Shown here: piece after piece, positions 18,762 to 49,009 of the stretch
How the letters are laid out: the number at the start of each line of letters is the position of its first letter
How positions within the stretch are numbered: the first letter of the stretch is position 1
Source: Desulfosudis oleivorans
GTDB taxonomy: Bacteria > Desulfobacterota > Desulfobacteria > Desulfobacterales > SURF-7
Length of the DNA: 64,000 bases
Assembly: GCA_020723325.1 (NCBI GenBank)
Contig: DYJD01000014.1
Span: 62,001-126,000, forward strand
Direction of reading: 5' to 3'
Notes under the pieces: generated by a model
The model's input: only the letters and a program-made list of their open reading frames with translations
Database searches by the model: none
What the model was told of the DNA's origin: nothing
Made by a program: the position numbers and the translations under genes

Positions 18762-18838
18762 TCGGGGTCGGGGTCGGTATCGGTATCGGGATCGAAAACA
18801 CAAATGAAATCCGACTGCGATACCGACCCCGACCCCGA
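18762..18838. repeat. Inverted repeat, TCGGGGTCGG family (copy 1)
   Basis: TCGGGGTCGGGGTCGGTATCG at 18762-18782 is matched perfectly in reverse by 18818-18838, giving a 21-bp stem with a 35-base loop. The left arm goes on with further TATCGG units. It lies 12 bases upstream of the FAD oxidoreductase start. A related pair occurs at 46776-46976. Confidence 0.85.
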
Positions 18839-35208: not shown

Positions 35209-36048
35209 ATGGATATTCGCGAGCCGCAAATCACCAAAGAACAGATTCTTTATTTGCAGGACGAACGCTTTCAGCCGGAGCGGGTGTGCATTGTCACCGG
35301 CGCAGGCACAGGCATCGGCCGGGCCGTGGCCATTGCCGCGGCGGCCAATGGCTTGACCGTCGCGGGCCTTGACATCAATGCCGCGGAAGGCAACAAGACC
35401 GCTGAGATGGCCGCAGCCCTGGGGGGGCGCATGACTTTTATCCAGACGGACCTATCCAAAGATGCCGAAATCGAGGGCGCCGTGGCCGCGGCCCGCAACC
35501 TCGGCTCCATTCAATTTCTAGCCAATATTGCCGGCTTGCAGCACATCGACTCCATCGAAAACTTCCCCATGGAAAAATACGACCTGATGCAACGGGTCAT
35601 GCTGCGCGCGCCTTTTTATTTGGCCAAGCTGGTCATGCCGGAGATGCGCAAAACCCAGGACGGCACCGGCGCCATCGGCAACATGGGCTCGGTGCATGCC
35701 CATATCTGCACCATGAACAAGCCGGTATATAACATCACCAAATTCGGCCTGCGGGCCTTGAGCCAATCCATTTCCGCCGAAGGCGGCGGCAAAATCAGAT
35801 CCTTCACGGTCAGCACCGGTTTTGTCAAAACACCCCTGGCATTGAATCAGATCCCGGCTCAGGCCCGGCAGAGGGGCATTACCGAGGAGGAAGTCGTCCA
35901 GAATGTCATGCTGGGCAAATCCCGGATAAAGGAAATGATGACGCCCGTGGACGTGGCCAACCTGTTTGTTTTCGGCTTTTCACGGTTCTCCAATTATCTG
36001 GTGGGCGGCGATTTGCTTTTTGATGGAGGGATGGTGAAGACTTACTAG
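35209..36048 (+). CDS. Short-chain dehydrogenase/reductase (3-hydroxybutyrate dehydrogenase-like)
   Basis: A 279-residue classical SDR with TGAGTGIG at residues 30-37, an NIAG variant of the NNAG motif, a Ser-containing NMGSVHAH loop and the catalytic pair Tyr174/Lys178 (YNITK). The C-terminal part GFSRFSNYLVGGDLLFDGG is usual for the family. Substrate binding cannot be read from the motifs; similarity in flavour is to 3-hydroxybutyrate dehydrogenase and related enzymes. It carries an N-terminal extension of ~20 residues before the fold. GGAGG precedes the ATG. No co-transcribed partner is seen. Confidence 0.88.
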   Translation: MDIREPQITKEQILYLQDERFQPERVCIVTGAGTGIGRAVAIAAAANGLTVAGLDINAAEGNKTAEMAAALGGRMTFIQTDLSKDAEIEGAVAAARNLGSIQFLANIAGLQHIDSIENFPMEKYDLMQRVMLRAPFYLAKLVMPEMRKTQDGTGAIGNMGSVHAHICTMNKPVYNITKFGLRALSQSISAEGGGKIRSFTVSTGFVKTPLALNQIPAQARQRGITEEEVVQNVMLGKSRIKEMMTPVDVANLFVFGFSRFSNYLVGGDLLFDGGMVKTY

Positions 36049-36567
36049 GCGTTATTCCAAAAAGAGCTTTCTTTTTCGATCTCGTTCAGACGGCGCTTGT
36101 AGTCGTCGTTTTAAAAACCGACTTGCTCATCGCGCCATCGCCTGTTGATCGATGCGTTGATATGGCCTTCATGGGTTTTACCCGGACCCTACTCATTTTC
36201 TTTTGTTTTTTATGCATATTTTTCCTTGACTTTTATTTCAGTCTTCATTATGTGACGCTATAAAAGCCGAGCAACCAGGTCGACATTCGACTACACCCAT
36301 CAACGCTATTTCATGGTTAATTCCCTTCAAAGGGATTTTTGGGGATATGGTTTCCGATTAATATTTACGAATTCGCGAAAAATGAAGATCAAAACCCACG
36401 GTGGGCGGGCATATCTTTGCCGTCCGGTTTCACAGCTTCATCATGCAGATGAAGGGATATCATTATTTCCGCCCCAAACCAAAAACCAGGTCAGAATGAA
36501 ATCCATGGGCCTGCAGCAGGACAAAGAGAAAGAGGGCGCTCACAATGGAAGAAAAGGAGGCATCACT
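36049..36567. promoter_or_regulatory. Long leader of the cold-shock gene with promoter candidate
   Basis: A ~520-base gene-free stretch. TTGACT at 36226 and TATGTG at 36249 (spacer 17) could start a leader of about 300 bases, as is usual for cold-shock mRNAs, where the 5' untranslated region controls translation by temperature. I cannot identify a cold-box sequence with certainty. Confidence 0.4.
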
Positions 36568-36780
36568 ATGGCTGAAGGGATTGTGAAATGGTTCAATGAT
36601 AAAAAAGGATATGGATTCATCGAGCAGGAAGAAGGCGGCGGCGATGTATTCGTTCATCATACGGCAATCAACATGCCGGGTTTCAGATCCCTTACCGAAG
36701 GGGAACGGGTCAGTTTTGAAATTGAAAAGGGTAATAAAGGTCCGGCAGCAAAAAATGTGGAACGGGTTTTATCCACATAA
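36568..36780 (+). CDS. Cold-shock protein (CspA family)
   Basis: A 70-residue CSD protein with the RNA-binding patterns [17 protein letters not shown] (RNP1) and [10 protein letters not shown] (RNP2), then [27 protein letters not shown]. It should bind single-stranded RNA/DNA and act as an RNA chaperone. The start at 36568 is set by AAGGAGG 7 bases upstream and by family homology; a frame reaching back to 36313 has no such signal. Confidence 0.95.
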
Positions 36781-36831
36781 AGTACTGACTCGTGATTGAG
36801 TTCTAGTTATCAAAAATGGGGAAAGAAATGC

Positions 36832-38589
36832 TCAGCCCTTGATTAGGGCAAGGATCTTCCGCCAGATCTGTTGAACATTTGCAAGGAGGTCGTCTCCGCC
36901 GAAATGAGAAAATAGCAATACACCGGCAGAGAGCAGGAGCAATGTTAAAAGCACTTGAATCCGGCGCAAACCCGGCAAGCTGAACAAGGACCTTACGGAT
37001 CGGCCGGCGGAAGCCGATCCTGAATCAGTCTCAAGCAAGGGCGCCGGCTCTTGAAGACCGGAACTCAACAAGTCGTCAATGGCTGCCAAAACCTGATCAA
37101 AGGTCTGAAAGCGCAAGTCCGGATTCTGGGCAAGCATTTTGGCAACCAGATGTTGAACCTGCCGGGGGAGTTCTTTAAAAGCCTGGTTGGGAGCAATCCC
37201 CTCCCCCTTTGTTTCCGGAATATCGCCGGTGAGCATCTGGTAAGTGATCACACCGGCAGCGTAAATATCGGCCGTCCTTGATTTGGGCTGGTCCTTTGCT
37301 ATGAACCAATTTGAATCCTGCGGGTCTGAAAGATAATGCGCGCTCAAGCCGAAATCGGAAATTTTGATTGTGCCGCCTTCGGAAAACAGGATATTGCTGG
37401 GCCGTAAATTGCCGTGAATGATCCTGTTCTTGTGGGCAAAGGACATACCCCGGCAAACCGGCCGCATAACGGCCAAAGCCTCGTTCCAGGCATAGATCTT
37501 GACCAAACGATCGGAAAGGCTTCCCCCGCTCAGGTATTCCATGACGATGATATATTCTTTTTCAGTTCCGGATACCCCATAAATATTGATCACATTTTCA
37601 TGCTTCAAGGTGGTGAGCATCTGGGCGTCTTTGAAGCCCCCCAGGGGAATGTTGAAGCGTTTGACCACCATCAGACGGTCCTGGATTTTATGTCGGATTA
37701 AAAAAACCGCGCCGAACCGGTTCTCTTTGATCACATCCAGCAGGGTAAAGGTGTCTTCCATCTTGGTCACCCCGCGGAAGGCCTCGCGCTTTTGGGTCTC
37801 GCGAATATGAGCGCCCTGCAGGATTTCCAGCAAGGCGTCTTTCACCAGGTCGGCCGAGGCAGGACGCAGCAGCGGATCAGCTTCCAGACAACGGAGAATC
37901 AACCGGCTCAAATTCGGCGGGAGTTTGGGATCAATTTCCGCGGGCGGCTTGAAATCGGCAAGGGGCTTGCTGCCCACAAACAACTCGTACATGACCACGC
38001 CCAGGGAATAGATGTCGCTGGCGGCTGTGATGGTTTGGGTGCCGCTCTTCTGTTCCGGCGACATGTAGGCCGGTGTTCCCATGATCACATGCTCCTCTTG
38101 CAGTTGCGCTTCCCCATCCACATCCTCAAAAAATTGGGCGATTCCAAAATCGGTCACCAGAACATTGCCTTCCCCATCCACAAGAATGTTGGCTGGTTTG
38201 ATGTCCCGGTGGATCACGCCGTTTTTATGGGCATAGGCCAGGGCCTTGCACACTTGAATCAGGAGGTCGATTTTTTTATTGGTGGTGAAGGTCTTGTCTT
38301 GAAGCAGGGCCGTGGCATCGGATCCGTTCACGAAATCCATTACAAAATACGGCATTCCCGTGGCAGTAAGGCCTCGATCAATTACATGGATGATGTTGGG
38401 ATGGGTCAGGCGCGCGATAATCAGCGACTCGCGTTTGAAGCGCACCACCAACTGTGAATCCTGGGCGAATTTTTTATGCAGGACCTTGATGGCCACAGGT
38501 CGCTTGAGGGACTCCTGAATTCCTTTATATACTGTGGCCATGCCGCCGGAATTCAGCTCTTCCAGAATATGATAGGCGCCGATTTTCAA
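36832..38589 (-). CDS. Tandem kinase-pseudokinase membrane protein (Hanks-type Ser/Thr kinase)
   Basis: A 585-residue protein with two kinase folds in one chain. The first (residues ~5-262) is complete: glycine loop LNSGGMATVYKG, Lys35 (VAIKVL), HRDIKPAN with Asp129, DFG 147-149, GTPAYMSPEQ. The second (~280-515) keeps the VAIK-like Lys310 and DFG 412-414 but has HGNLRPSN in place of HRDxKxxN, so the catalytic Asp is gone, and lacks a glycine-rich loop. It should be a pseudokinase. A single membrane segment lies near 543-565. The first domain should phosphorylate proteins at Ser/Thr in the cytosol; the second may regulate it or bind a partner. The stop/start overlap with the short periplasmic-binding-like gene (ATGA) puts them in one operon. 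Confidence 0.9.
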   Translation of the reverse strand: MKIGAYHILEELNSGGMATVYKGIQESLKRPVAIKVLHKKFAQDSQLVVRFKRESLIIARLTHPNIIHVIDRGLTATGMPYFVMDFVNGSDATALLQDKTFTTNKKIDLLIQVCKALAYAHKNGVIHRDIKPANILVDGEGNVLVTDFGIAQFFEDVDGEAQLQEEHVIMGTPAYMSPEQKSGTQTITAASDIYSLGVVMYELFVGSKPLADFKPPAEIDPKLPPNLSRLILRCLEADPLLRPASADLVKDALLEILQGAHIRETQKREAFRGVTKMEDTFTLLDVIKENRFGAVFLIRHKIQDRLMVVKRFNIPLGGFKDAQMLTTLKHENVINIYGVSGTEKEYIIVMEYLSGGSLSDRLVKIYAWNEALAVMRPVCRGMSFAHKNRIIHGNLRPSNILFSEGGTIKISDFGLSAHYLSDPQDSNWFIAKDQPKSRTADIYAAGVITYQMLTGDIPETKGEGIAPNQAFKELPRQVQHLVAKMLAQNPDLRFQTFDQVLAAIDDLLSSGLQEPAPLLETDSGSASAGRSVRSLFSLPGLRRIQVLLTLLLLSAGVLLFSHFGGDDLLANVQQIWRKILALIKG

Positions 38590-39047
38590 TCTGATATTCT
38601 TATGATCTTCACACCCACTGGCTTGGTGCTGTCGGAAATATACCCAATGGCGCCCCTGGTCAGGGCCACATGGGCCATTAAATCCTTTTCACTTCGAAAG
38701 GTCATGGGGGTTCGCCCTTTGCCTGAAAATACGAGCTTTTTCCAATATCTTCGATATTGGGAAGGTGTTTTCCGGAAGAATTGCCAGACAAAAAGCCGAT
38801 GGGTTTCACCTTCCTGCAGCAAGGTGATGTTGATGCCCTCTTCCTGGTCCCATAAGGTTTTTGTCTGCTTGAAAATATCGATTAAATCGTTCCGCGATAA
38901 GGTGTCAAAGGGCAGGGTCTTGTTGCCGATGATTTGGATTCCCCCTTCTTCCAGGGATGGGTCGGTGGCCATTCCCCGCCCCTCAGCCAGTACAACAGCG
39001 GCAATAACGGCAATATGGAAAAAGATGCGGAGCCTGTTCCGTTCCAA
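38586..39047 (-). CDS. Small periplasmic-binding-protein-like (PstS-like) secreted protein
   Basis: A 153-residue protein with a Sec signal (RNRLRIFFHIAVIAAVVLAEGRGMA) and a truncated phosphate-binding-protein-like fold: IIGNKTLPFDTLSRNDLIDIFKQTKTLW, ITLLQEGETHRLFVWQFF, YWKKLVFSGKGRTP and VALTRGAIGYISD. It lacks the second lobe of PstS. The start at TTG 39047 is chosen because a strong GGAGGGGAGG lies 3-12 bases upstream and a signal peptide begins there; a longer ATG frame from 39095 would have no such site. The end overlaps the kinase start by 4 bases, so the two are translated together and the secreted protein may be the sensor for the kinase pair. Confidence 0.75.
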   Translation of the reverse strand: MERNRLRIFFHIAVIAAVVLAEGRGMATDPSLEEGGIQIIGNKTLPFDTLSRNDLIDIFKQTKTLWDQEEGINITLLQEGETHRLFVWQFFRKTPSQYRRYWKKLVFSGKGRTPMTFRSEKDLMAHVALTRGAIGYISDSTKPVGVKIIRISD

Positions 39048-39170
39048 TGCGCCTCCCCTCCGTTTGGAAACTTGCGTCGGTCCCAGCCAAATCATGGTGT
39101 GCTTTTTGTTTCGTTATAACTGACAGTTAAGAAAATGTCCATCAAAAAGCCAAAATACTTGCACCTGATC

Positions 39171-40247
39171 TTATTCTGCCTTCAGCAGATATATCATTCC
39201 AAAACATAAAAAAATCAAATTGGTGACCCAGGCAGCCAAAAAGGGCGGAATCAATCCGCCATAACCGAGTGATAGGCAAAAACTGTAAAACACCCAATAC
39301 AAAAATGCAATACCGATTCCATAAGAAATACTGACAGCCAGGCCCTTATCCAGCTTGCCCCTTACCGACAGGCTGATGCCGATCAGGCACATGATCACGC
39401 ACACAAACGGGAAGGCTGTTTTGGAATACAGATCCACACGATAATTTGTGGCGTCATAGCCCTCTTCTTCCACCTTATGAATGTAGGCCCGGAGCTCCTG
39501 AAAATTCATTTCCGTGGATTTTTTGACGATTTCCTGAAGATCCCCAGGGCTGAAATCAAAGGCTTCCAAGAGCGCGTCATGAAACAAAATAGTATAATTC
39601 CCCGCTGTTTTGTCAAAACTATGGGTCATGGCGCCGTACAAGCTCCAGCGCCCGTTCTGATAAACGCCCCGCTCCGCATCCGTGCGTTTCACCAACAAAA
39701 AGTTTTCATCAAACGCATAGATGGTTACGCCGCAGATGGCGCTTTCGGAAATTTGGAAATGTTTGATAAAGATGATCCGACGTTTGTCTTTAAGCCAGAT
39801 ATTCTCTTTTTTAAAGGAGGTGACGGTTTCTTTGCGAATTTCACGATACTTGATCTCATTTGATTTTTGCGTGCTGACCGGCGCTAAAAATTCCGCTATG
39901 AAAAGCAAAGCCAGGGTCAGGCCGCCGGCGATCACCAACATGGGTCTGATCAGGGCATAGGTGCTGATCCCACTGCTCTTGAGAATGATGAGCTCATTGT
40001 TTTTAGCCATCAGACCGAAAACAATCAGAACAGCCAGGAGCAAGGCCACGGGAATGAACTGGGTAATCACGAATGGAATTCGCAAGAGCACATACATCAG
40101 CGCCCGTGTAAGGGGGATCTTGGACTGGATGAATTCATCCATGGTCCCGATATAATCTACAGCCACAAAGATACCGACCACCAGGATCAACACCCAGGAA
40201 AAAAATTTCAGCACCTCGCGGCTCACGTATCGGTACAGCAGGTTCAG
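39171..40247 (-). CDS. lptG: LPS export ABC transporter permease LptG
   Basis: A 358-residue LptF/LptG-type permease: membrane segments near residues 13-35, 60-85 and 100-120, then a large periplasmic beta-jellyroll part (~145-260), then three more segments to the end. Motifs are YVSREVLKFFSWVLILVVGIF, LPVALLLAVLIVFG and FPFVCVIMCLIGISLSVR. It forms the LptB2FG complex that extracts LPS from the inner membrane. Family homology starts at LNLLYRYVS; the codon there is CTG, with AAAGGA 9 bases upstream, and the frame runs to 40463 through the lptF gene without another plausible start. CTG is a rare start, so the exact start is uncertain. It follows lptF by 4 bases. Confidence 0.92.
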   Translation of the reverse strand: MNLLYRYVSREVLKFFSWVLILVVGIFVAVDYIGTMDEFIQSKIPLTRALMYVLLRIPFVITQFIPVALLLAVLIVFGLMAKNNELIILKSSGISTYALIRPMLVIAGGLTLALLFIAEFLAPVSTQKSNEIKYREIRKETVTSFKKENIWLKDKRRIIFIKHFQISESAICGVTIYAFDENFLLVKRTDAERGVYQNGRWSLYGAMTHSFDKTAGNYTILFHDALLEAFDFSPGDLQEIVKKSTEMNFQELRAYIHKVEEEGYDATNYRVDLYSKTAFPFVCVIMCLIGISLSVRGKLDKGLAVSISYGIGIAFLYWVFYSFCLSLGYGGLIPPFLAAWVTNLIFLCFGMIYLLKAE

Positions 40248-40251
40248 TGGT

Positions 40252-41445
40252 TCAAATCCTTTCCTTGAAAACGTATCGGGAGCGGCAGCGCTGCCAAAGC
40301 AGCCGGACATGCTGAAACAGGTCCAAACGCAGGGGATTGTCCACAGCGGCGCGGCGCAACAGATATATGCCGATGCCCCCCATGATTGCATTGGGCATCC
40401 ACATTCCCAAAACCGGCGGGTATGCGCCGGACTCACCAAAGGACCAGCCGGCCGACAAGACAATATAGTAGCACAGGAACAGAATAATGCCGGTTACCAC
40501 ACCCAGGGAGCGTCGCTCGGATTTAACCTGCAGCCCCAGTGGGACCGCCAGCACCCCCAAGGCCAAACAGGCAAAAGGAATTGAAAATTTTTCATGATAG
40601 CGCAGCAAGGCGCTGTAATAGCGGTCATCCTTTTTGTCCATGGTGTCAATGGCGCGTTTCAGCTCCATTGGGCCCATTTCCTCCAGTTGCTTGCGGGCCC
40701 CCAGGGCTGATCGCATGGCCTCTTTCAAATCCAAATTGATTTCATAGGAATCAAAAAAGGCGCTGTGGGCCGTCCGGCCGGCCAGGTCCACCTGACTGAT
40801 GACGCCGTTCATCAGTTTTAGATGAAATACATGCTTTTGCGAATCACTGGAAAGAACACCCCGGGGGGCGACAATGGCCACTGTGGTATGACCGACTTTG
40901 CGCTCTTCCACAAAGACATCCACCAGCTCCTTGGTCTGCATGTCGATCTTATTCACATAAAGCATGATGCCGTCAAAATTGTCGTTAAAAGTCCTTTCCT
41001 TGAGCCCGGCATTGATATTTTCCTCGGCTAGCTTAAGGGCGGTTTGCTGAAAAGAACGTTTGCCCCAGGGCATGCCCACCATGGCGATAAATCCGGTCAG
41101 CAGGGTTCCCAGCAAACAAAATGCAAAGACCGCCGGCAGCAATTGATAGAGCCCGATACCACCTGATTTTAGCGCCGTAATTTCGTTGTCGCCGGACATG
41201 CGCAGGAAGGTGAGCAACACGGCCATCATCACCGACATGGGAATGATATAATTCAAAAAAAAAGGCATGGAAAAGGCCAGCATCCACAGCACGGCCGTCA
41301 GGCCGATGCGAAAGTTCACGATCAAATTGGCAATGTCAAGGATTCTGGTCATCAGGAAAATAAAGGTGAAAAAACCCAGATTGATCACAAAGGGCGGGAT
41401 CATTTCCTGAAAAACATACCGATGGATGCGGGCTTGGATTTTCAT
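40252..41445 (-). CDS. lptF: LPS export ABC transporter permease LptF
   Basis: A 397-residue permease with six membrane segments flanking a periplasmic jellyroll: RYVFQEMIPPFVINLGFFTFIFLMTRIL, LNYIIPMSVMMAVLLTFLRMSGDNEITALKSGGIGLYQLL and SIPFACLALGVLAVPLGLQ. The DNEITALKSGG pattern is LptF-like. It pairs with LptG in LPS export. The start at 41445 is where homology begins; the frame extends to 41511. It lies 5 bases after the DprE2-like gene and 4 bases before lptG, so the sugar genes and the exporter permeases are translated from one message. Confidence 0.93.
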   Translation of the reverse strand: MKIQARIHRYVFQEMIPPFVINLGFFTFIFLMTRILDIANLIVNFRIGLTAVLWMLAFSMPFFLNYIIPMSVMMAVLLTFLRMSGDNEITALKSGGIGLYQLLPAVFAFCLLGTLLTGFIAMVGMPWGKRSFQQTALKLAEENINAGLKERTFNDNFDGIMLYVNKIDMQTKELVDVFVEERKVGHTTVAIVAPRGVLSSDSQKHVFHLKLMNGVISQVDLAGRTAHSAFFDSYEINLDLKEAMRSALGARKQLEEMGPMELKRAIDTMDKKDDRYYSALLRYHEKFSIPFACLALGVLAVPLGLQVKSERRSLGVVTGIILFLCYYIVLSAGWSFGESGAYPPVLGMWMPNAIMGGIGIYLLRRAAVDNPLRLDLFQHVRLLWQRCRSRYVFKERI

Positions 41446-41450
41446 GGCAG

Positions 41451-42182
41451 TTACAGCCGCAAGCGTTTGAATACCGGCTCGGGAATGGAGCGGATGACCA
41501 GCATGATCCATTTCCAGAACCAGCGGGTATAGACAATGTCTTTGGATTTTTGAAAAGCCCGGTGAATATCCCGGGCAGCCTCTTCGGGCAAGGCCGTGAG
41601 TTTTTCCGGCAATTCCATGGACTCGGTCATTTTGGTGCGGATAAAGCCCGGCAGAACCGTGATCACTTTCACCCCCCGGGGGGCCAAGCGATTGCGCAAT
41701 CCGCTGAGATAGATGGAAAAGGCCCCTTTGGCCGCCCCATAAAAATAATTGCTCTGGCGGCCCCGTTGGCCGGCCACGGAACTGAGGCCGATGATGAAGC
41801 CGTGCCCGCGCCGCTCAAAATCCGCGGCAACGATTTCCAGGATGCTCACTGCGCCGATAAAATTGGCATGGAAAATCCGGCGGGCCTGATGAAAATCCTT
41901 TTGGGCCGCGGCTTGATCCCCCAGATAGCCAAAGGCCGCAACCACGCCGTCCGGTTTGGGCTTAAGGCTCTCATAAAAATCGGCATGGGACTTGCAATCT
42001 TCCGCATCGAAAAATAAAGGGGTTGCCGTTATTCCATGGCGGATGGTGAGGTCCCGGGCTTTTTTTTCCAGGGCCGTCACATTGCGGGAGGCCAGATAAA
42101 GATCGGCCTTTTCAAATTGGGCAAAGCGCCCGGCCAGGGCAAAGGCCACATCCGAATTGGCTCCAAGAACCAGCAAATTCAT
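41451..42182 (-). CDS. dprE2: DprE2-like SDR (decaprenylphosphoryl-2-keto-ribose reductase)
   Basis: A 243-residue SDR: MNLLVLGANSDVAFALAGRF start, GLSSVAGQRGRQSNYFYGAAKGAFSIYLSGLRNRL with the YxxxK pair (YGAAK), and VLPGFIRTKM. This is the pattern of DprE2, which reduces the 2-keto intermediate made by DprE1 to give polyprenyl-phospho-arabinofuranose. The neighbour DprE1 just upstream (4 bases apart) makes this assignment much firmer than the fold alone would allow. It lacks a membrane segment at the start but ends with a hydrophobic, possibly membrane-facing helix (WKWIMLVIRSIPEPVFKRL). Confidence 0.88.
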   Translation of the reverse strand: MNLLVLGANSDVAFALAGRFAQFEKADLYLASRNVTALEKKARDLTIRHGITATPLFFDAEDCKSHADFYESLKPKPDGVVAAFGYLGDQAAAQKDFHQARRIFHANFIGAVSILEIVAADFERRGHGFIIGLSSVAGQRGRQSNYFYGAAKGAFSIYLSGLRNRLAPRGVKVITVLPGFIRTKMTESMELPEKLTALPEEAARDIHRAFQKSKDIVYTRWFWKWIMLVIRSIPEPVFKRLRL

Positions 42183-42186
42183 GTTG

Positions 42187-43485
42187 TCATACTCCTAGTC
42201 GTTTGGATTGCAGGGAATTGAATTTTCTTTGCTTGTCCCACTTGTCCCGCACGGCCGCAAACAAGTGCAGGCGGGGATAACCTTCTCTGAACACTTGGGC
42301 CGGCATGCGCACATCCTTGGTCAGGTACAGCCGCCCGCCATGATCGAGGACGATGCGGTCCAGCTCATCCAGAAAAGCAAACAAGGGTCGCTCGATTTTG
42401 AAATCAAGGGCCAGGGTATAGCCCTCCATGGGAAAGGACAGGTAGTTGTCGTTTTCCGGGCCGAAGAGTTTCAGCACAGCCAGAAAAGATCCGAAACCGG
42501 CCTTTCCGATGCGATCTAAAATTTTCGTAAGACCTGCAAAGCTGGCGGCCTTGGGCAGGACTAACTGGTATTGGGTGAAACCGGAGGCCCCATACATCCG
42601 ATTCCAGTTGTCGATCCGGTCCAGGGGGTAAAAAAACGGTTCCAACGGCACCAGGCGGTTCTCCACAAAGGCCGGATGAGACCCGTAGTAGATGCGGTTG
42701 AACAGCCGGACCGTGTAACGATTCAAACAGCCTCTTGGAAAGTTCACGGGCACGGACAGGCGCCGCACCGGCGGAAGCTGCCGGGGCCCTGTCTCGGCAT
42801 TTTCTCCCAGCATGAGAATGGAGCGTCCCATTTGACTGCCTTGGGCCAGACAGTCGATCCAGGCCACGGAATAGGTAAAGGCCCGGTGCTGTTCAAAAGC
42901 CCCGCAGACTTCTTCCAAATTGCGGCAGCGCAGGATTGTTTCGCGGATATAGGCGCTTTTTACCGGTTGCAGTTTCAACCTGACCGTCAGGATAATGCCG
43001 GTCAAGCCCATGCCGCCGCAGGTGGCCAAAAAAAGTTCGCGATTTTCCGTGGGACTGCAATGAACAATGCGGCCATCGGCCGACATCAGTTGGAAGGATA
43101 GCACGCAACTGCTGAAACATCCGGCCGAATGGTGGTTTTTACCGTGCACGTCGGCCGCGATGGCACCGCCCACGGAGATCAATTTGGTGCCCGGAGTGAC
43201 CATGAGAAACCAGCCCCTGGGCAGAAAAACATCGATCAACTCCGCCAGGCTGACCCCGCTTTCACATTCCACCACGCCCTGTTGCGGGTCAAAGGCGATG
43301 ATCTTGTTATACCTTCGGGTAGTGATCACTTGCTGATTCAGGGCGCTGTCGCCGTAGCTGCGACCCTTGGCATGGACAATCCATTCCCCTGCGACAGATA
43401 GAACCGCCGGCAGCTCTGCCTCGCTCTCAAATGAAACCGCTTTCGCGTTTATCAAGGGGTAGCGTCCCCAGCCGCTCAATTTCAT
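42187..43485 (-). CDS. dprE1: DprE1-like FAD oxidase (decaprenylphosphoryl-ribose 2-epimerase subunit)
   Basis: A 432-residue FAD-binding oxidoreductase: GRSYGDSA at 41-48, VTPGTKLISVGGAIAADVHGKNHH at 96-119, and TKD with Lys390. This follows mycobacterial DprE1, which oxidises polyprenyl-phospho-ribose at C2. His119 matches His132 and Lys390 matches Lys418 of the mycobacterial enzyme. The inhibitor-binding Cys387 of that enzyme corresponds to Ala359 here (TLALDF), with the same 31-residue spacing to the Lys. The start overlaps the prenyltransferase stop as ATGA. Together with the reductase and the transferase this makes a complete epimerase system. Confidence 0.9.
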   Translation of the reverse strand: MKLSGWGRYPLINAKAVSFESEAELPAVLSVAGEWIVHAKGRSYGDSALNQQVITTRRYNKIIAFDPQQGVVECESGVSLAELIDVFLPRGWFLMVTPGTKLISVGGAIAADVHGKNHHSAGCFSSCVLSFQLMSADGRIVHCSPTENRELFLATCGGMGLTGIILTVRLKLQPVKSAYIRETILRCRNLEEVCGAFEQHRAFTYSVAWIDCLAQGSQMGRSILMLGENAETGPRQLPPVRRLSVPVNFPRGCLNRYTVRLFNRIYYGSHPAFVENRLVPLEPFFYPLDRIDNWNRMYGASGFTQYQLVLPKAASFAGLTKILDRIGKAGFGSFLAVLKLFGPENDNYLSFPMEGYTLALDFKIERPLFAFLDELDRIVLDHGGRLYLTKDVRMPAQVFREGYPRLHLFAAVRDKWDKQRKFNSLQSKRLGV

Positions 43486-44396
43486 GACACCTCGGATCCG
43501 CCGTGCTTAATTAAATACAGCAATACATACACATTCAACAACCAACAAAGAATTACCACCTGCAGAAAAGTATCCTTGAGCAACACCATGGTGGGGGAGC
43601 CGCTGCGCTGCTCCACAAAGGTGATTTGCAAATAGCGCAACAATCCCAGGATCACCCAAAAGGCCGTCAGATACATGTGATGGGTTCCATGCTTGGCCAT
43701 GACTTCAGGGGATACGGTATACAGCAGATAGGCCACGATGATTACCGAGACCATGACCCCCATACTCAGGGAAACAAATTCAAAATTATAGCCGTCCAGG
43801 GATTTGCGGGTGCTGTTGCCCATGTCTTCCAGGAGCAGGTCGTCCCGCCTTTTGGCCAGGGCCAAAAAAAGGGCCAGCAGGAAGGTCATCATGATGATCC
43901 AGGGACTGATGTACACCTCAGCCGCAATGCCGCCGGCCAGAATCCGCAGGACAAAGCCAACGGCAATGCAGACGATATCAATGACCGCAATATGTTTCAA
44001 CCGAAAGGAATAAATCAGGTTCAGCAGCAAATAGGCGCCGATCACCCCTGCAAAGCCAAGGGGCAGCAAGCCCAGGGCAATAATGGCGGCTATAAATACA
44101 AGCATGAAAAACAAAACATAGGCCTCGCCTTCACTGACCAAATTAGCGGCAATGGGTCTCAGTTTTTTCACCGGATGGCGCCGATCTTCTTGCACATCGC
44201 GCAGATCATTGATCATATAGATGCTGCTGGCTGCCAGGCAAAAAGCGAGGAACGCCGCGAAGGTCATCTGCACGGCTTGAATTTGATGTAATTTATTGCC
44301 GAAAAAAAGCGGCAGCCACACAAACCCGTTTTTCAAATACTGGTGGGGCCGCGCCAGCCGTATATAAGCCTTTATTTTTTGCACGACTTTCTCCAT
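43482..44396 (-). CDS. ubiA: UbiA-type polyprenyl-phosphate phosphoribosyltransferase (DPPR synthase-like)
   Basis: A 304-residue polytopic membrane protein with about nine helices. It starts with RLARPHQYLKNGFVWLP and has the DPPR synthase signature INDLRDVQEDRRHPVKKLRPIAA (Asn63/Asp64/Asp67/Asp71), the diphosphate-binding motif of the polyprenyl-phosphate branch rather than of ubiquinone enzymes. It should move phosphoribose from PRPP to polyprenyl phosphate. The second Asp motif is around KRRDDLLLED. The start at 44396 overlaps the HAD gene end by 25 bases; a start further upstream would run deeper into the HAD gene. The stop overlaps dprE1. Confidence 0.88.
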   Translation of the reverse strand: MEKVVQKIKAYIRLARPHQYLKNGFVWLPLFFGNKLHQIQAVQMTFAAFLAFCLAASSIYMINDLRDVQEDRRHPVKKLRPIAANLVSEGEAYVLFFMLVFIAAIIALGLLPLGFAGVIGAYLLLNLIYSFRLKHIAVIDIVCIAVGFVLRILAGGIAAEVYISPWIIMMTFLLALFLALAKRRDDLLLEDMGNSTRKSLDGYNFEFVSLSMGVMVSVIIVAYLLYTVSPEVMAKHGTHHMYLTAFWVILGLLRYLQITFVEQRSGSPTMVLLKDTFLQVVILCWLLNVYVLLYLIKHGGSEVS

Positions 44397-45043
44397 ATGG
44401 CCGTCAGGTCGGCATGACCGCTCCTTGCAAAATACCGTCCCGGCTTTTCTAAAATAAGATAGGGCATGCCAGCCCGCCGGGCGCATTCCCCATCCTTGTC
44501 ATCCCGGTCACCGATGAATAGGCATTCTTCCAGGGGCACATGCATTTTTTCGGCAATCATCCTTAATCCCTTGGGCGCCGGTTTTAAACAGTCCACTTCC
44601 GCATCAACAGCGGAAAGGATCACATCCGCTTCCAATCCCAGGGCCCGCAGTTTTTGGTCGGCCGGATAATCGGAAAAGATGCCGATGGAAATACTCGCGG
44701 CCTTCAAATCGGCAAACAGCTTTGTCACCCCGTTGAATCGGCAAGCGGATAAATACGGCAGGGGCCGCACCAGCATCCATTTCTCCACTGCCTGCCGCAC
44801 CTGATCGGCCGGGACCCTTGAACGTTGCGCCCCCCATTCATACTGTTGCTTGTTGATGCAACCGCAGTTGGTTGCGCTGTTTTCCTCCCGTGCCTTCCTG
44901 AAATCAAAAACGATTTTCATTTCCAAGGCAGACCGTGGTCGGCGCAACATGGTGAAGAACATATCAAATAAGATGCGAATGCGCAATTTGCGTTGATCAT
45001 ATAAGGTCCCATCCACATCGAAAATGACAGCCTTCAAGCGCAC
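44372..45043 (-). CDS. HAD hydrolase, candidate phosphatase of the polyprenyl-phospho-pentose pathway
   Basis: A 223-residue HAD: nucleophile motif FDVDGTLY (Asp9), SDYP in motif II, and Lys/Asp motifs DCLKPAPKGL and GDRDDKDGECARRAGM. Its place between the glycosyltransferase gene (4 bases apart) and the prenyltransferase (25-base overlap) suggests it removes the 5-phosphate of polyprenyl-phospho-5-phosphoribose, the step for which a phosphatase is needed. That is inference: in mycobacteria the proposed phosphatase is of another family. The cap domain (residues ~16-85) is mostly helical. Confidence 0.8.
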   Translation of the reverse strand: MRLKAVIFDVDGTLYDQRKLRIRILFDMFFTMLRRPRSALEMKIVFDFRKAREENSATNCGCINKQQYEWGAQRSRVPADQVRQAVEKWMLVRPLPYLSACRFNGVTKLFADLKAASISIGIFSDYPADQKLRALGLEADVILSAVDAEVDCLKPAPKGLRMIAEKMHVPLEECLFIGDRDDKDGECARRAGMPYLILEKPGRYFARSGHADLTAIWRKSCKK

Positions 45044-45047
45044 TTCC

Positions 45048-46607
45048 CTATTTTGAATTCAATTCCGGAAAATACATGTCATAATAAAAACAATCCCCCC
45101 TGGGCAAAAAAGCAGGGATGTTATACCAATTGCCGGCAATGCGGCTCAAAAATTGTTCCCGGTAAACCCGGTAGCGAAATCCTTTTCCCAGGGTGACATG
45201 AAAAGTCTGCTGCCGGATTAAGAGGGTTTCTTTGGAAATGGAATCAAAATATGGGCTGTAATCCTCTGTAACCGGCAGGGTTGAAAAGACCATGAAATCC
45301 TTGCCGTCCAGCATACGGAAGTCGGTCAAACGATCATCCTGCCGACCGTGTTTGGAATCGTCGTGGAACACAATATAGCGCCGGTTGCTGTGATAGGTCA
45401 TGGCCCCTGAGGTATAATAGCCGTTGGTGGCCGGCACATTATCTTGACCGTATTTTTCCAGCAGCGCGGCTTCAATTTCCCTTCCGTGCAGGCTGAGAAC
45501 CAGATCATGATAATAGGGTTTGCCCTGGAGTATTTCCACCGGCAGCCCGAGGAGAACCACAATCGGAACAAGATGCATCAGGCTGAAAACAGCGGAATAG
45601 CGGATCAGTTTTTTCAAATCCGTTGGGTCCACCTGCATCAGAAACAGGTACAGAAAAGGATAAAAAGAGAGGGTCCAGTGCAGACCGCTGCGGTGAAAGG
45701 CGACAAGGCCCATGACAGCCACCGGAACCGCGAAAAAACAAAACAACAGTTTGCCGTCGGCACGGATTGCCAGGCCGAGTTTTTGCCGATTTTGAAAAAA
45801 ACGCCATAGCAGCCAAGGGGTGGATAGATAGGCTTGGAATCCGAGAAAAGTGAAAAAGCCGGCGATGTTCAAGTGCACATCCCGGTTGCGGTTGATGACG
45901 TTGAAGAGCACGTTGGTCCAGCAATGGTTGTAGTTCCAGTAAAGATGCAGCAGAATCAGCGGAAGCGCCCCGGCCAGCCAGACCAGTCCGTTCATGAGAG
46001 CCCGGCGGTCGCGCCGGATGAGGAGATAGATCAGATAGGCAACCAACAACAGCCCGGCAAAGTATTTGCTTAAAATCGCCAAACCCAAACAAAGACCGGA
46101 AAGGAAAACAATAAAGCGCTTGCTGCGCCGGAGGCCGAGGTCCAACAACAGGCCGCATGCAAAAACAAAAAGAAAGAGGGGGGTATCCGTGGCTATCAGG
46201 ACAAAAAGCATGTGCAGGGGTGACAGGAGATAAAAAAGGGAAACCAGGCAAGCTTTTTCCGTGTTGCCGGTCAACCGGGCCACAAAACCATACATGCCCA
46301 TGGCAACCAGCGCGCCGCATAAAATGGTAAACAGGCGTGGGAAAAAGATATGCCGGCCCAACTGGCTGAACAGATACACCATCCAACCGGTCATGGGCGG
46401 ATGGTCGTAATAGGTGAAATCAGGCCGGCTCACCCAGGTATAAAAATAAGCCTCATCCGAGGTGATGGGGAAGAAATAGGCCAGCAGCAGCTTGATGGCG
46501 ATAACACCGATAAAAATATGACGATAGTTTTTTTCCATAAATGCGTAAACGGCTTTGCCCTGATTCCCCGGCAGGGATGCTTTTGGTTTCATGCTACATA
46601 TACGCAT
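45048..46607 (-). CDS. ArnT-like polyprenyl-sugar glycosyltransferase (GT39/GT83, PMT_2)
   Basis: A ~515-residue GT-C enzyme with about 12 membrane segments. The first outer loop has the catalytic TSDEAYFYTW (Asp/Glu pair) and YYDHPPMTGW motifs of the ArnT/PMT_2 family, and LSPLHMLFVLIATDTPLFLF is also typical. ArnT moves a pentose (4-amino-arabinose) from undecaprenyl phosphate to lipid A. Sitting 4 bases before the HAD gene at the start of the pentose operon, it is likely the transferase for the pentose made by the neighbours. The soluble C-terminal part (from ~365) is periplasmic. The start is uncertain: 46607, 46592 and a later ATG are all possible and none has a clear ribosome site. Confidence 0.85.
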   Translation of the reverse strand: MRICSMKPKASLPGNQGKAVYAFMEKNYRHIFIGVIAIKLLLAYFFPITSDEAYFYTWVSRPDFTYYDHPPMTGWMVYLFSQLGRHIFFPRLFTILCGALVAMGMYGFVARLTGNTEKACLVSLFYLLSPLHMLFVLIATDTPLFLFVFACGLLLDLGLRRSKRFIVFLSGLCLGLAILSKYFAGLLLVAYLIYLLIRRDRRALMNGLVWLAGALPLILLHLYWNYNHCWTNVLFNVINRNRDVHLNIAGFFTFLGFQAYLSTPWLLWRFFQNRQKLGLAIRADGKLLFCFFAVPVAVMGLVAFHRSGLHWTLSFYPFLYLFLMQVDPTDLKKLIRYSAVFSLMHLVPIVVLLGLPVEILQGKPYYHDLVLSLHGREIEAALLEKYGQDNVPATNGYYTSGAMTYHSNRRYIVFHDDSKHGRQDDRLTDFRMLDGKDFMVFSTLPVTEDYSPYFDSISKETLLIRQQTFHVTLGKGFRYRVYREQFLSRIAGNWYNIPAFLPRGDCFYYDMYFPELNSK

Positions 46608-46775
46608 CTGGGCAAATGTGCAAGTTAATCAGTTAATCCGGACAAGGGAATCACATGTAAACTTGGCGCGGAATGTGCGGCCATTAATTACCAATATTTC
46701 ACCCAGCGAATACTATTGCTCGTCAGGACAAAGCGATTCGTGAGCGCTTGAGTATTGTCTCTGTCATCCAAACTC

Positions 46776-46976
46776 TCGGGGTCGGTATCGGAATCGGTAT
46801 CGAGTCTTTTTCTATCAACGGGACGGGTCGGGGCCTCCCGCCGATGGGTAGGGGCGGTTCGCGAACCGCCCTACAGCAAGGCCATCACGCTGGGTCTTGG
46901 GGTCAGCAGGCCCCCCTGGGTTTTCGGAGTCGCTCAACTTATTTTTTTTCGATAGCGATTCCGATACCGACCCCGA
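46776..46976. repeat. TCGGGGTCGG family inverted repeat (copy 2)
   Basis: The arm 46776-46803 and the arm 46949-46976 are inverted copies of 28 bases with one mismatch, about 145 bases apart, enclosing a second small palindrome at 46849-46873. It is related to copy 1 at 18762. The region 46608-47060 between the divergent glycosyltransferase genes otherwise has no gene. Confidence 0.85.
46849..46873. repeat. TAGGGGCGGTTCGCGAACCGCCCTA palindrome
   Basis: A near-perfect 25-base palindrome around TTCGCGAA, nested inside copy 2 of the TCGGGGTCGG repeat. A relative with the same TAGGGGCG ends lies at 48624. Confidence 0.75.
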
Positions 46977-47060
46977 CCCCGAAAAAACGAATTGTCATCC
47001 CCTCTGGGTACTCGAGGTTTTCTCTTGACTTTGCCCAATGCTGGTATAGAGTCCCAGGTC

Positions 47061-48668
47061 ATGCAAAAACCCAGTGAACATTTTTATACTTTTGCCGCCT
47101 GGGCTGTTTTGGCCACGGCCGCCCTTTTCCGCCTGATTTACGCCGGACAATTTCCCCTGGTTCCGGATGAAACCAACTACTGGCAATGGGGCCGCCATCT
47201 GGCCTGGGGCTATCACGACAATGCCCCCATGATCGGCTGGGCCATCCGGCTGGCCACGGAACTCATGGGGCATACGGAAACCGCCGTACGCCTGCCGTCC
47301 GTGCTGGCCATGACCATCGCCTCCATTTACATTCTGCTGGCAGCCCGGCGCTGGTATTCGCCGGCCGTGACCTTTCATGCCGTGCTACTAAGCCAGGGTA
47401 TTCTCGAATTCAATGTGGGTGGTTTGCTGGCCACCACCGACGGTCTCCAGGCGGCCGGCTGGGCCGCGGCCGCCTATCATGTGGCCCGGGCTTATGAGGA
47501 CAATCGCTGGTCTCATTGGCTCCTGGGCGGCATCTGGTTCGGTTTCGGTTTGCTGAGCAAATATACCATGGTGATTTTTCTGCCTGGGGCCTATCTTTTT
47601 GGACTGCTCTCCCAGCAATACCGGCCACGCTTGGCCCAAGCCCGTCCCTATGTGGGCCTGTCTTTGGGAGTGATGCTGTTCGCGCCGGTGATCCTTTGGA
47701 ATATTGTAAATGGATGGAATTCCGCCCGGCATGTGGCCCATCTGGGCGGCGTGGATGAATCTTTTAAGCTGCATTTGAAATATTTCGCCGAGTACTTGGG
47801 CGGCCAGGCCGGTCTGGTTTCACCCCTTATCTTTTTGCTGGTCTTGCTGGCCTGGCACATGGCCTTCTGGTCGAAAAAAAAGCAGTGGGTGAATTCGTAT
47901 CTTTTTTGGACCTCCTTTCCCATGTTCGCAGGGTTTGCCCTGCTGAGCCTGCACACGCGGGTTTACGCCAACTGGCCGGGGACGGCTTATCTGACCGCAT
48001 GTATTCTGGTGGCGGCCTGGTTCAGCCCGGGAGGAGCGCAAACAACCCTTGCCGCTCCGTTGCGGTATTTTGGGCAGCGCCTGTATCCCTGGGGGGTGGG
48101 ACTGGCTTATATCTTGACGGCCCTGCTGCTGATTCATGTGGTCACACCGATTTTTCCGGTTTCCAAGAAAATCGACCGGGTGGCCCGTGAAATCGCCGGC
48201 TGGGACCTTTTGGGCCGCAAGGCTTCCGAAACAATGCAGGCCATGCCGACTCCGCAAAAAACCTTTCTTTTTGGGTTAAAATATCAAATCGCCAGCGAAT
48301 TGGCTTTTTACACCCCCGGCAATCCTGAAACCGTGGCCATCAACAAATGGAACCGGCCCAATGTATATGATTACTGGTTTACGGATGACGATCTGCGGGG
48401 CTGGGATGCGGTGGGGGTCAGCGAGGCCCCCAATGACCATGAAACCAAATTGAACCAGATTTTTGAACGCGTGGATGCCCCTGTGGAAATTAAAGTGTAC
48501 CGGGATGCTCCCTGGCAGCCGGCATCAGCCCTGGAACCGGCCCAGGTGTTTTATTTATATCGGGCTTACGGCTTCAAGGGCGGTTTGCGCTGGCAGCCGT
48601 CAAACCCCGGCGATATCCGAGCTGTAGGGGCGAAAGATTTTTCGCCCCTACATAGGCCGCACCATTAA
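47061..48668 (+). CDS. Second ArnT-like polyprenyl-sugar glycosyltransferase
   Basis: A ~535-residue GT-C enzyme of the PMT_2/ArnT family: VPDETNYWQWGRHLAWGYHDNAPMIGW gives the Asp/Glu pair and the H-D-x-P-M motif of the first loop, and GGLLATTDGLQAAGWAAAAYH is typical. About 11-12 membrane segments are followed by a soluble C-terminal region. It diverges from the pentose operon and may add a second sugar from the same lipid carrier. The start at 47061 is chosen by homology; only a weak AGG lies upstream. The last residues (RAVGAKDFSPL) are translated from a short palindrome at 48624-48651, so the tail may be altered. Confidence 0.85.
   Translation: MQKPSEHFYTFAAWAVLATAALFRLIYAGQFPLVPDETNYWQWGRHLAWGYHDNAPMIGWAIRLATELMGHTETAVRLPSVLAMTIASIYILLAARRWYSPAVTFHAVLLSQGILEFNVGGLLATTDGLQAAGWAAAAYHVARAYEDNRWSHWLLGGIWFGFGLLSKYTMVIFLPGAYLFGLLSQQYRPRLAQARPYVGLSLGVMLFAPVILWNIVNGWNSARHVAHLGGVDESFKLHLKYFAEYLGGQAGLVSPLIFLLVLLAWHMAFWSKKKQWVNSYLFWTSFPMFAGFALLSLHTRVYANWPGTAYLTACILVAAWFSPGGAQTTLAAPLRYFGQRLYPWGVGLAYILTALLLIHVVTPIFPVSKKIDRVAREIAGWDLLGRKASETMQAMPTPQKTFLFGLKYQIASELAFYTPGNPETVAINKWNRPNVYDYWFTDDDLRGWDAVGVSEAPNDHETKLNQIFERVDAPVEIKVYRDAPWQPASALEPAQVFYLYRAYGFKGGLRWQPSNPGDIRAVGAKDFSPLHRPHH
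48624..48651. repeat. GTAGGGGCG palindrome inside the 3' end of the glycosyltransferase gene
   Basis: GTAGGGGCGAAA pairs perfectly with TTTCGCCCCTAC around GATT (12-bp stem). The repeat is in frame and supplies the last coded residues of the gene. Confidence 0.85.
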
Positions 48669-48718
48669 GAAGGAATTTCCAATGCTGAAGGGAGGAAGCA
48701 CAGTGCCCGGCTTGTGTG

Positions 48719-49009
48719 TCAGCCCGCTTCCTTGGGATCGATAGCCTTCGCCGCGCAAGCGCTTTCCTCAAAATCGTCCTTGAAAAAATCAAAAAGACTG
48801 CCGGTATAACCACACTGGAAGGCCTGTTCGATTTTGCGGCGGATGTAATCTTGCGTGGCCTCTTCACCATCGATTTTCAGCCGGACGGCGATGAGCCTTT
48901 GCAGAAAGGTATCCTCACGCTGTTTTCTGGGGATCAGCTCCATTAAGCGGTGAAAGGCCGCCTGAAGCGGCCCTTTCAATTCTTCCATGGCAATCACATT
49001 GTCCGGCAT
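48719..49009 (-). CDS. Small hypothetical protein of the Gld-type operon
   Basis: A 96-residue, mainly helical acidic protein (EELKGPLQAAFHRLMELIPRKQREDTFLQRLIAV, IRRKIEQAFQCG) with two cysteines. No family recognised and no signal peptide or membrane segment. It is 12 bases after the DUF4340 gene with AGGAAACC before its ATG, so it is the last gene of the ABC transporter operon, and may work with that complex. Confidence 0.7.
   Translation of the reverse strand: MPDNVIAMEELKGPLQAAFHRLMELIPRKQREDTFLQRLIAVRLKIDGEEATQDYIRRKIEQAFQCGYTGSLFDFFKDDFEESACAAKAIDPKEAG

Follow-up and report, generated by a model that had tools for sequence, protein, structure and literature searches.

A DprE1–DprE2–UbiA gene block adjoining lptF and lptG in Desulfosudis oleivorans, a candidate pathway for pentofuranose addition to lipopolysaccharide

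The window analyzed here is a stretch of 64,000 nt from Desulfosudis oleivorans (assembly GCA_020723325.1, contig DYJD01000014.1, positions 62,001 to 126,000 of the forward strand). It contains seven closely packed minus-strand genes, in which enzymes resembling those of mycobacterial arabinose-donor synthesis are followed by the two permeases of lipopolysaccharide (LPS) export; an eighth gene is divergent from them. Profile matches agreed with an earlier note on this DNA in the identity, coordinates, strand and order of all seven genes (GT-HAD-UbiA-DprE1-DprE2-LptF-LptG). The features are as follows (GT and GT2plus denote the two glycosyltransferases):

45048–46538, minus strand: GT, a PMT_2/ArnT-like GT-C glycosyltransferase (Pfam PF13231, E = 3.8e-21), putative polyprenyl-P-pentofuranose:LPS transferase
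44372–45043, minus strand: HAD-family phosphatase (PF00702, E = 4e-15), putative 5′-phosphatase of polyprenyl-P-ribose-5-P
43482–44396, minus strand: UbiA-type polyprenyl-phosphate phosphoribosyltransferase (DPPR synthase / PPPRS; PRK12324, E = 2.2e-67)
42187–43485, minus strand: DprE1, polyprenyl-P-ribose 2′-oxidase (NCBIfam NF053785, E = 2.8e-122)
41451–42182, minus strand: DprE2, 2′-keto reductase of the short-chain dehydrogenase/reductase (SDR) type (NCBIfam NF053786, E = 9e-56)
40252–41445, minus strand: LptF, LPS-export permease (NCBIfam TIGR04407, 253.1 bits, cut-off 230)
39171–40247, minus strand, start uncertain (40255-40226): LptG, LPS-export permease (NCBIfam TIGR04408, 307.7 bits, cut-off 240)
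46992–48668, plus strand, divergent from the operon: GT2plus, a second ArnT-like/PMT_2 GT-C glycosyltransferase (PF13231, E = 4.8e-36)

Three starts were revised by homologue alignments (GT, 46538 instead of 46607; UbiA, 44396 instead of 44486; LptF, 41445 instead of 41511). With these starts, the junctions were 4 nt (GT-HAD), a 25-nt overlap (HAD-UbiA), a 4-nt overlap (UbiA-DprE1, ATGA), 4 nt (DprE1-DprE2), 5 nt (DprE2-LptF) and approximately 0–25 nt (LptF-LptG). Thus, the statement of the earlier note that neighbors overlap or lie within 5 bases was correct for nearly every junction, the spacing of LptF and LptG being uncertain, and its operon-like layout was upheld; its description of the genes as fused to the exporter permeases was too strong, because the genes are merely adjacent and no protein fusion is present. 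Consensus scans of the block for promoter-like and terminator-like sites showed no excess over shuffled sequence, giving no reason to split it, and a single shared transcript is presumed. LptF and LptG were the sole PF03739 proteins of the genome (99.5% complete), and therefore the LPS extractor of the cell depends on this gene block. LpxC is also encoded in the genome. A scan of positions 36000–49000 against Rfam gave no match, and no near DNA match was found among plasmids.

The DprE1 protein matched M. tuberculosis DprE1 over its full length (PDB, E = 3.5e-84). The equivalents of Tyr60, His132, Gln336, Lys367, Tyr415 and Lys418, which we take to be the active-site residues, were identical in all 57 sequences compared (the window protein and 56 homologues). 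The equivalent of Cys387, presumably the covalent benzothiazinone target in M. tuberculosis, was Ala in all 57, so that the binding mode of covalent inhibitors of the benzothiazinone type is expected to differ. The adjoining DprE2 reductase matched the structure of M. tuberculosis DprE2 (21gq_C, E = 2.3e-28) and carries the YGAAK motif. Because both proteins scored below their NCBIfam cut-offs (DprE1, 409 against 500; DprE2, 189 bits against 250 for NF053786), their specificity is presumptive. The UbiA protein matched the Rv3806c structure 8j8j (E = 2e-38) and kept 10 of 12 residues of the phosphoribosyl pyrophosphate (PRPP)/lipid site (R22, K28, Y70, N73, D77, K87, R90, Y138, K143 and K208; site residues from PMC10994848), the two departures being Q135 to N and Y157 to F. 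Its scores straddled the cut-offs of two PRK12324 models (227.6 against 234, below; 210.5 against 207, above). The HAD protein is a plausible 5′-phosphatase, since HAD-UbiA fusion proteins exist (PRK08238 family, e.g., L203 5555-6979) and the Citrobacter synthase contains a HAD module (PMC11127046). Because DprE1 and UbiA retain known catalytic and substrate-binding residues, polyprenyl-phospho-D-arabinofuranose is the likely product, and synthesis of this donor is a well-supported predicted function of the block.

The window GT matched none of the NCBIfam models, including the ArnT equivalog. When a profile was built from ten GT sequences, its sole PDB match was ArnT of Cupriavidus (5EZM, E = 0.006). 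The AlphaFold model of GT was built from six sequences and reached a pLDDT of 56 and a pTM of 0.59, and for this reason it serves as supporting evidence only. Its top structural match was again ArnT (Z = 19.4 over 345 residues, root-mean-square deviation 4.4, for a model with this pLDDT), with PMT/OST enzymes close behind (Pmt4, Z = 17.8) and the mycobacterial arabinosyltransferases AftB, EmbB, AftD and AftA lower (Z = 14.4 to 11.9). The model supports a predicted GT-C enzyme that uses a polyprenyl-P-sugar; that GT may be nearer to ArnT than to other GT-C enzymes is suggestive only.

Recurrence was examined in a sample of 340 genomes of the class, many of them draft assemblies, with co-localization read from contig coordinates. 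DprE1 was present in 28 of these genomes, LptF in 303, and both in 27. In four of the 27, belonging to two families, DprE1 and LptFG were joined (≤6 kb, same strand). Random placement in 5-Mb genomes predicts approximately 0.06 joins in 27 genomes, and the chance of four is approximately 4e-8, a significance inflated by shared ancestry. A search for the order dprE1-dprE2-ubiA-lptFG, proposed in the earlier note, recovered the full seven-gene order in another genus of the same family (G004), with proteins 51–65% identical; gene order kept in this way is not chance. The G004 locus (L016) also carries the divergent GT2plus. In the second family (f49), one genome (G109) has GT, DprE1, DprE2, a selD-like gene, LptF, LptG, LpxK and a heptosyltransferase, and the other (G117) has GT2plus (divergent), GT, a fusion of NTP_transferase and GT2, DprE1, DprE2, a selD-like gene (identified by eye, opposite strand), LptF, LptG, WaaA and LpxK. 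Because two families are involved, the join either arose once long ago and was then lost in places or arose twice. The lptFG-joined DprE1 proteins did not come out as one clade; they were dispersed through a class-level clade whose inner branches had weak support.

The link of GT to lptFG was stronger than that of DprE1. The GT family occurred in eight of the 340 genomes, seven of which have DprE1 (hypergeometric test, P = 9e-8, uncorrected for phylogeny), and in seven of the eight GT lay ≤7.3 kb from lptFG (G000, G004, G109, G117, G009, G010 and G305). The exception, G002, has its GT on a contig of 12 kb. The distance was 0.37 kb in G009 (divergent), 4.2 kb in G010 and about 6 kb from LptG in G305. 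The HAD-UbiA-DprE1-DprE2 cassette of G009 and G010 sits on a different contig from GT and lptFG, and GT is therefore tied to lptFG independently of the cassette. The G305 genome, from yet another family, has LpxB, MsbA, PAP2, UbiA, DUF362, LptF, LptG, PAP2 and LpxK on one strand (L202:6890-17276); its GT and GT2plus lie at a distance of a few kb past this lipid A/LPS-export block. Its UbiA exceeds the PRK12324 cut-off and is of the phosphoribosyltransferase type, no DprE1 was detected in the genome, and the block is a possible ribofuranose variant.

GT2plus was found in 40 of the 340 genomes and divergently adjoined lptF in at least ten of them (G036, G337, G063, G296, G019, G178, G084, G071, G090 and G025), none of which had a DprE1 match. 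GT2plus failed the ArnT equivalog model (22.1 against a cut-off of 567), and its profile had no match in the PDB. The GT2plus type appears to be an LPS-linked GT-C family. Under the simplest history, GT and the DprE cassette would have been inserted between GT2plus and lptF. Since GT and GT2plus each stay near lptFG, LPS is the acceptor suggested for these GT-C enzymes. L067 and L069 are among the loci at which a GT2plus-type gene is the divergent neighbor of lptF in a genome without a DprE1 match.

As far as sequence can establish them, gene identity, active-site residues, order, overlap, the single-copy state of LptFG and conserved linkage are secure. The block is probably a pentofuranose-addition pathway with LPS as the acceptor, a reading in which sugar, acceptor, flippase and shared transcript are presumed. 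In the proposed mechanism, the HAD protein would strip the 5′-phosphate from polyprenyl-P-ribose-5-P, and DprE1 and DprE2 would invert C2 to give polyprenyl-phospho-D-arabinofuranose. The lipid would be turned over by a flippase encoded elsewhere (GtrA-type candidates; GtrA-family genes were found on contigs C85 and C78), and GT would move the pentofuranose, on the periplasmic side, to lipid A, core or O-chain of inner-membrane LPS. The finished LPS would be extracted by LptB2FG, the permeases LptF and LptG of which are encoded in the same operon. The earlier suggestion of a pentofuranose put onto LPS was favored by the GT-lptFG linkage, the LpxK, WaaA, LpxB and MsbA neighbors in relatives and a fold that may be nearest to that of ArnT, with sugar and acceptor both putative. 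The accompanying idea of a glycan perhaps made and exported together was loose, because an LPS acceptor requires donor flipping and periplasmic transfer before Lpt acts, and the operon has no flippase gene.

Several observations weigh against LPS as the acceptor of an arabinofuranose made here. No flippase gene was found in the operon, and the likeness of GT to ArnT is distant, judging from the profile E value, the pLDDT and the nearly equal PMT/OST folds given above. GT may not need arabinose, given that G305 has GT and no detected DprE1. Because lptFG often stands in mixed operons, co-expression could be incidental. In most DprE1-bearing genomes of the class, the DprE cassette lies away from lptFG, which also favors an explanation in which polyprenyl-P-arabinofuranose is made, GT targets an acceptor other than LPS (type IV pilin, exopolysaccharide or envelope protein) and lptFG only shares the promoter. 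PMT-type GT-Cs, which score close to ArnT, also modify proteins, and the proposed role of the corresponding P. aeruginosa genes is pilin arabinosylation (PMC11127046). However, GT remains near lptFG where the cassette does not (G009 and G010), and the GT of G305 lies within the lipid A gene region; we consider a non-LPS acceptor unlikely.

The sugar itself could be other than D-arabinofuranose, if GT used D-ribofuranose directly or if DprE1 and DprE2 acted on another polyprenyl-P-sugar. The combination of GT and UbiA without a detected DprE1 in G305 speaks for this, as does the acceptance of both Ribf and Xylf donors by the GT136 enzyme (PMC11127046). In three loci, moreover, a fusion stands upstream of DprE1, at the place of UbiA:

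L096:11365-12876 (G117), L024:225-1742 (G005) and L113:6526-7956 (contig ending right after DprE2): nucleotidyltransferase-GT2 (dolichyl-P-hexose-synthase-like) fusion upstream of DprE1-DprE2

No UbiA match was found in G117 or G005. With the fusion replacing UbiA, DprE1 and DprE2 may act on a different polyprenyl-P-sugar in these loci. In contrast, the window holds UbiA, HAD, DprE1 and DprE2 together, with all tested DprE1 catalytic residues, and the fusion was not found in its genome; for the window, another sugar is thus quite improbable. In the tree, the DprE1 proteins linked to the fusion were not recovered as a clade. An accident of genome shuffling, in which a mobile DprE cassette came to lie upstream of lptFG without being functionally linked to it, would fit the many different contexts of the cassette across the class and the failure of lptFG-joined DprE1 proteins to form one clade. 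We regard it as very improbable, given that two genera of one family retain the join and a second family has it too, that random placement predicts far less than one join and that GT and GT2plus each track lptFG separately. Pentofuranose addition to LPS remains favored. A more detailed version is offered tentatively for this class of bacteria: the ArnT-like enzyme, co-expressed with the only LptFG, may add a furanose pentose of the mycobacterial decaprenyl-phospho-arabinose (DPA) route to lipid A-core before export, as a regular part of LPS maturation, and in some relatives DprE1 and DprE2 may work with the nucleotidyltransferase-GT2 fusion in place of UbiA. If so, the fusion would mean epimerization of a non-ribose sugar on a lipid carrier. 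The pathway would connect two textbook routes, ArnT-type LPS decoration and the synthesis of the arabinose donor in mycobacteria, the latter a drug-target pathway. It leads to the specific prediction, open to test, of a modified LPS in bacteria that have received little study, offers the GT family beside lptFG as a genomic marker for pentofuranosylated LPS, and prompts the question of whether decoration and extraction of LPS are regulated together.

The earlier note held that such trios are known in a few Gram-negatives. They proved widespread, DprE1 relatives being encoded in at least 581 candidate stretches, and a general pathway exemplified by LPS O antigens has been described (PMC11127046). 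Among the 80 best loci from outside genomes, none had an LptF or LptG homologue within up to 8 kb of DprE1, some loci being limited by contig ends; a join to lptFG as a general trait of Gram-negative DprE loci was therefore rejected. Literature searches returned no paper on DprE1 joined with LptF/LptG and nothing useful on Desulfobacter LPS with arabinose. Kelly et al. (2024) described how pentofuranose is added to LPS O antigens by extracytoplasmic systems of three components, a UbiA-type synthase with a HAD module, a flippase and a GT-C enzyme, and DprE1/E2 homologues were noted there as proposed epimerases in candidate systems with arabinofuranose; LptF is not mentioned in the main text (PMC11127046). 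The proposed pathway is a variant of these systems. With the Kelly systems (Citrobacter youngae O1/O2, GT136) it shares a PRPP-dependent UbiA-type synthase, a HAD phosphatase, an epimerase step and a GT-C transferase. It differs in its links, which are to lptFG and, among relatives, to genes for lipid A and core instead of an O-antigen locus, in having HAD and UbiA as separate proteins and an ArnT/PMT_2-like GT, and in combining synthase and GT-C but no flippase in the operon.

Compared with the mycobacterial DPA pathway (Rv3806c, Rv3807c, DprE1, DprE2 and Emb/Aft), UbiA, DprE1 and DprE2 are homologues with matching active-site residues, whereas HAD replaces the unrelated Rv3807c, the ArnT-like GT replaces Emb/Aft and DprE1 has Ala for Cys387. 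ArnT, the 4-amino-4-deoxy-L-arabinose (L-Ara4N) transferase of lipid A, shares the predicted GT-C fold and was both the sole PDB profile match and the best structural match; its sequence similarity is weak, and the donor expected in the window is a D-pentofuranose from PRPP, not undecaprenyl-phosphate-L-Ara4N. A DprE1/DprE2/UbiA set is also associated, in Gram-negatives, with the arabinosylation of pilin in Pseudomonas aeruginosa and of Nod factors in Azorhizobium; the acceptor there is pilin or Nod factor, and we know of no lptFG link in either.

Two further features flank the block. Approximately 75 nt past lptG, the minus strand (36832-39095) encodes a Ser/Thr kinase that has two regions of kinase-like sequence, and a 169-amino-acid open reading frame without a Pfam match, an arrangement not kept in G004. 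On the other side lies an intergenic element:

46776–46976, no strand: element between divergent GT and GT2plus, with 28-nt inverted repeat arms at 46776-46803 and 46949-46976

This 200-nt element (arms TCGGGGTCGGTATCGGAATCGGTATCGA, 96%) has a core motif that occurs again near 18774-18826, and it may represent a small mobile element or one of the REP type.

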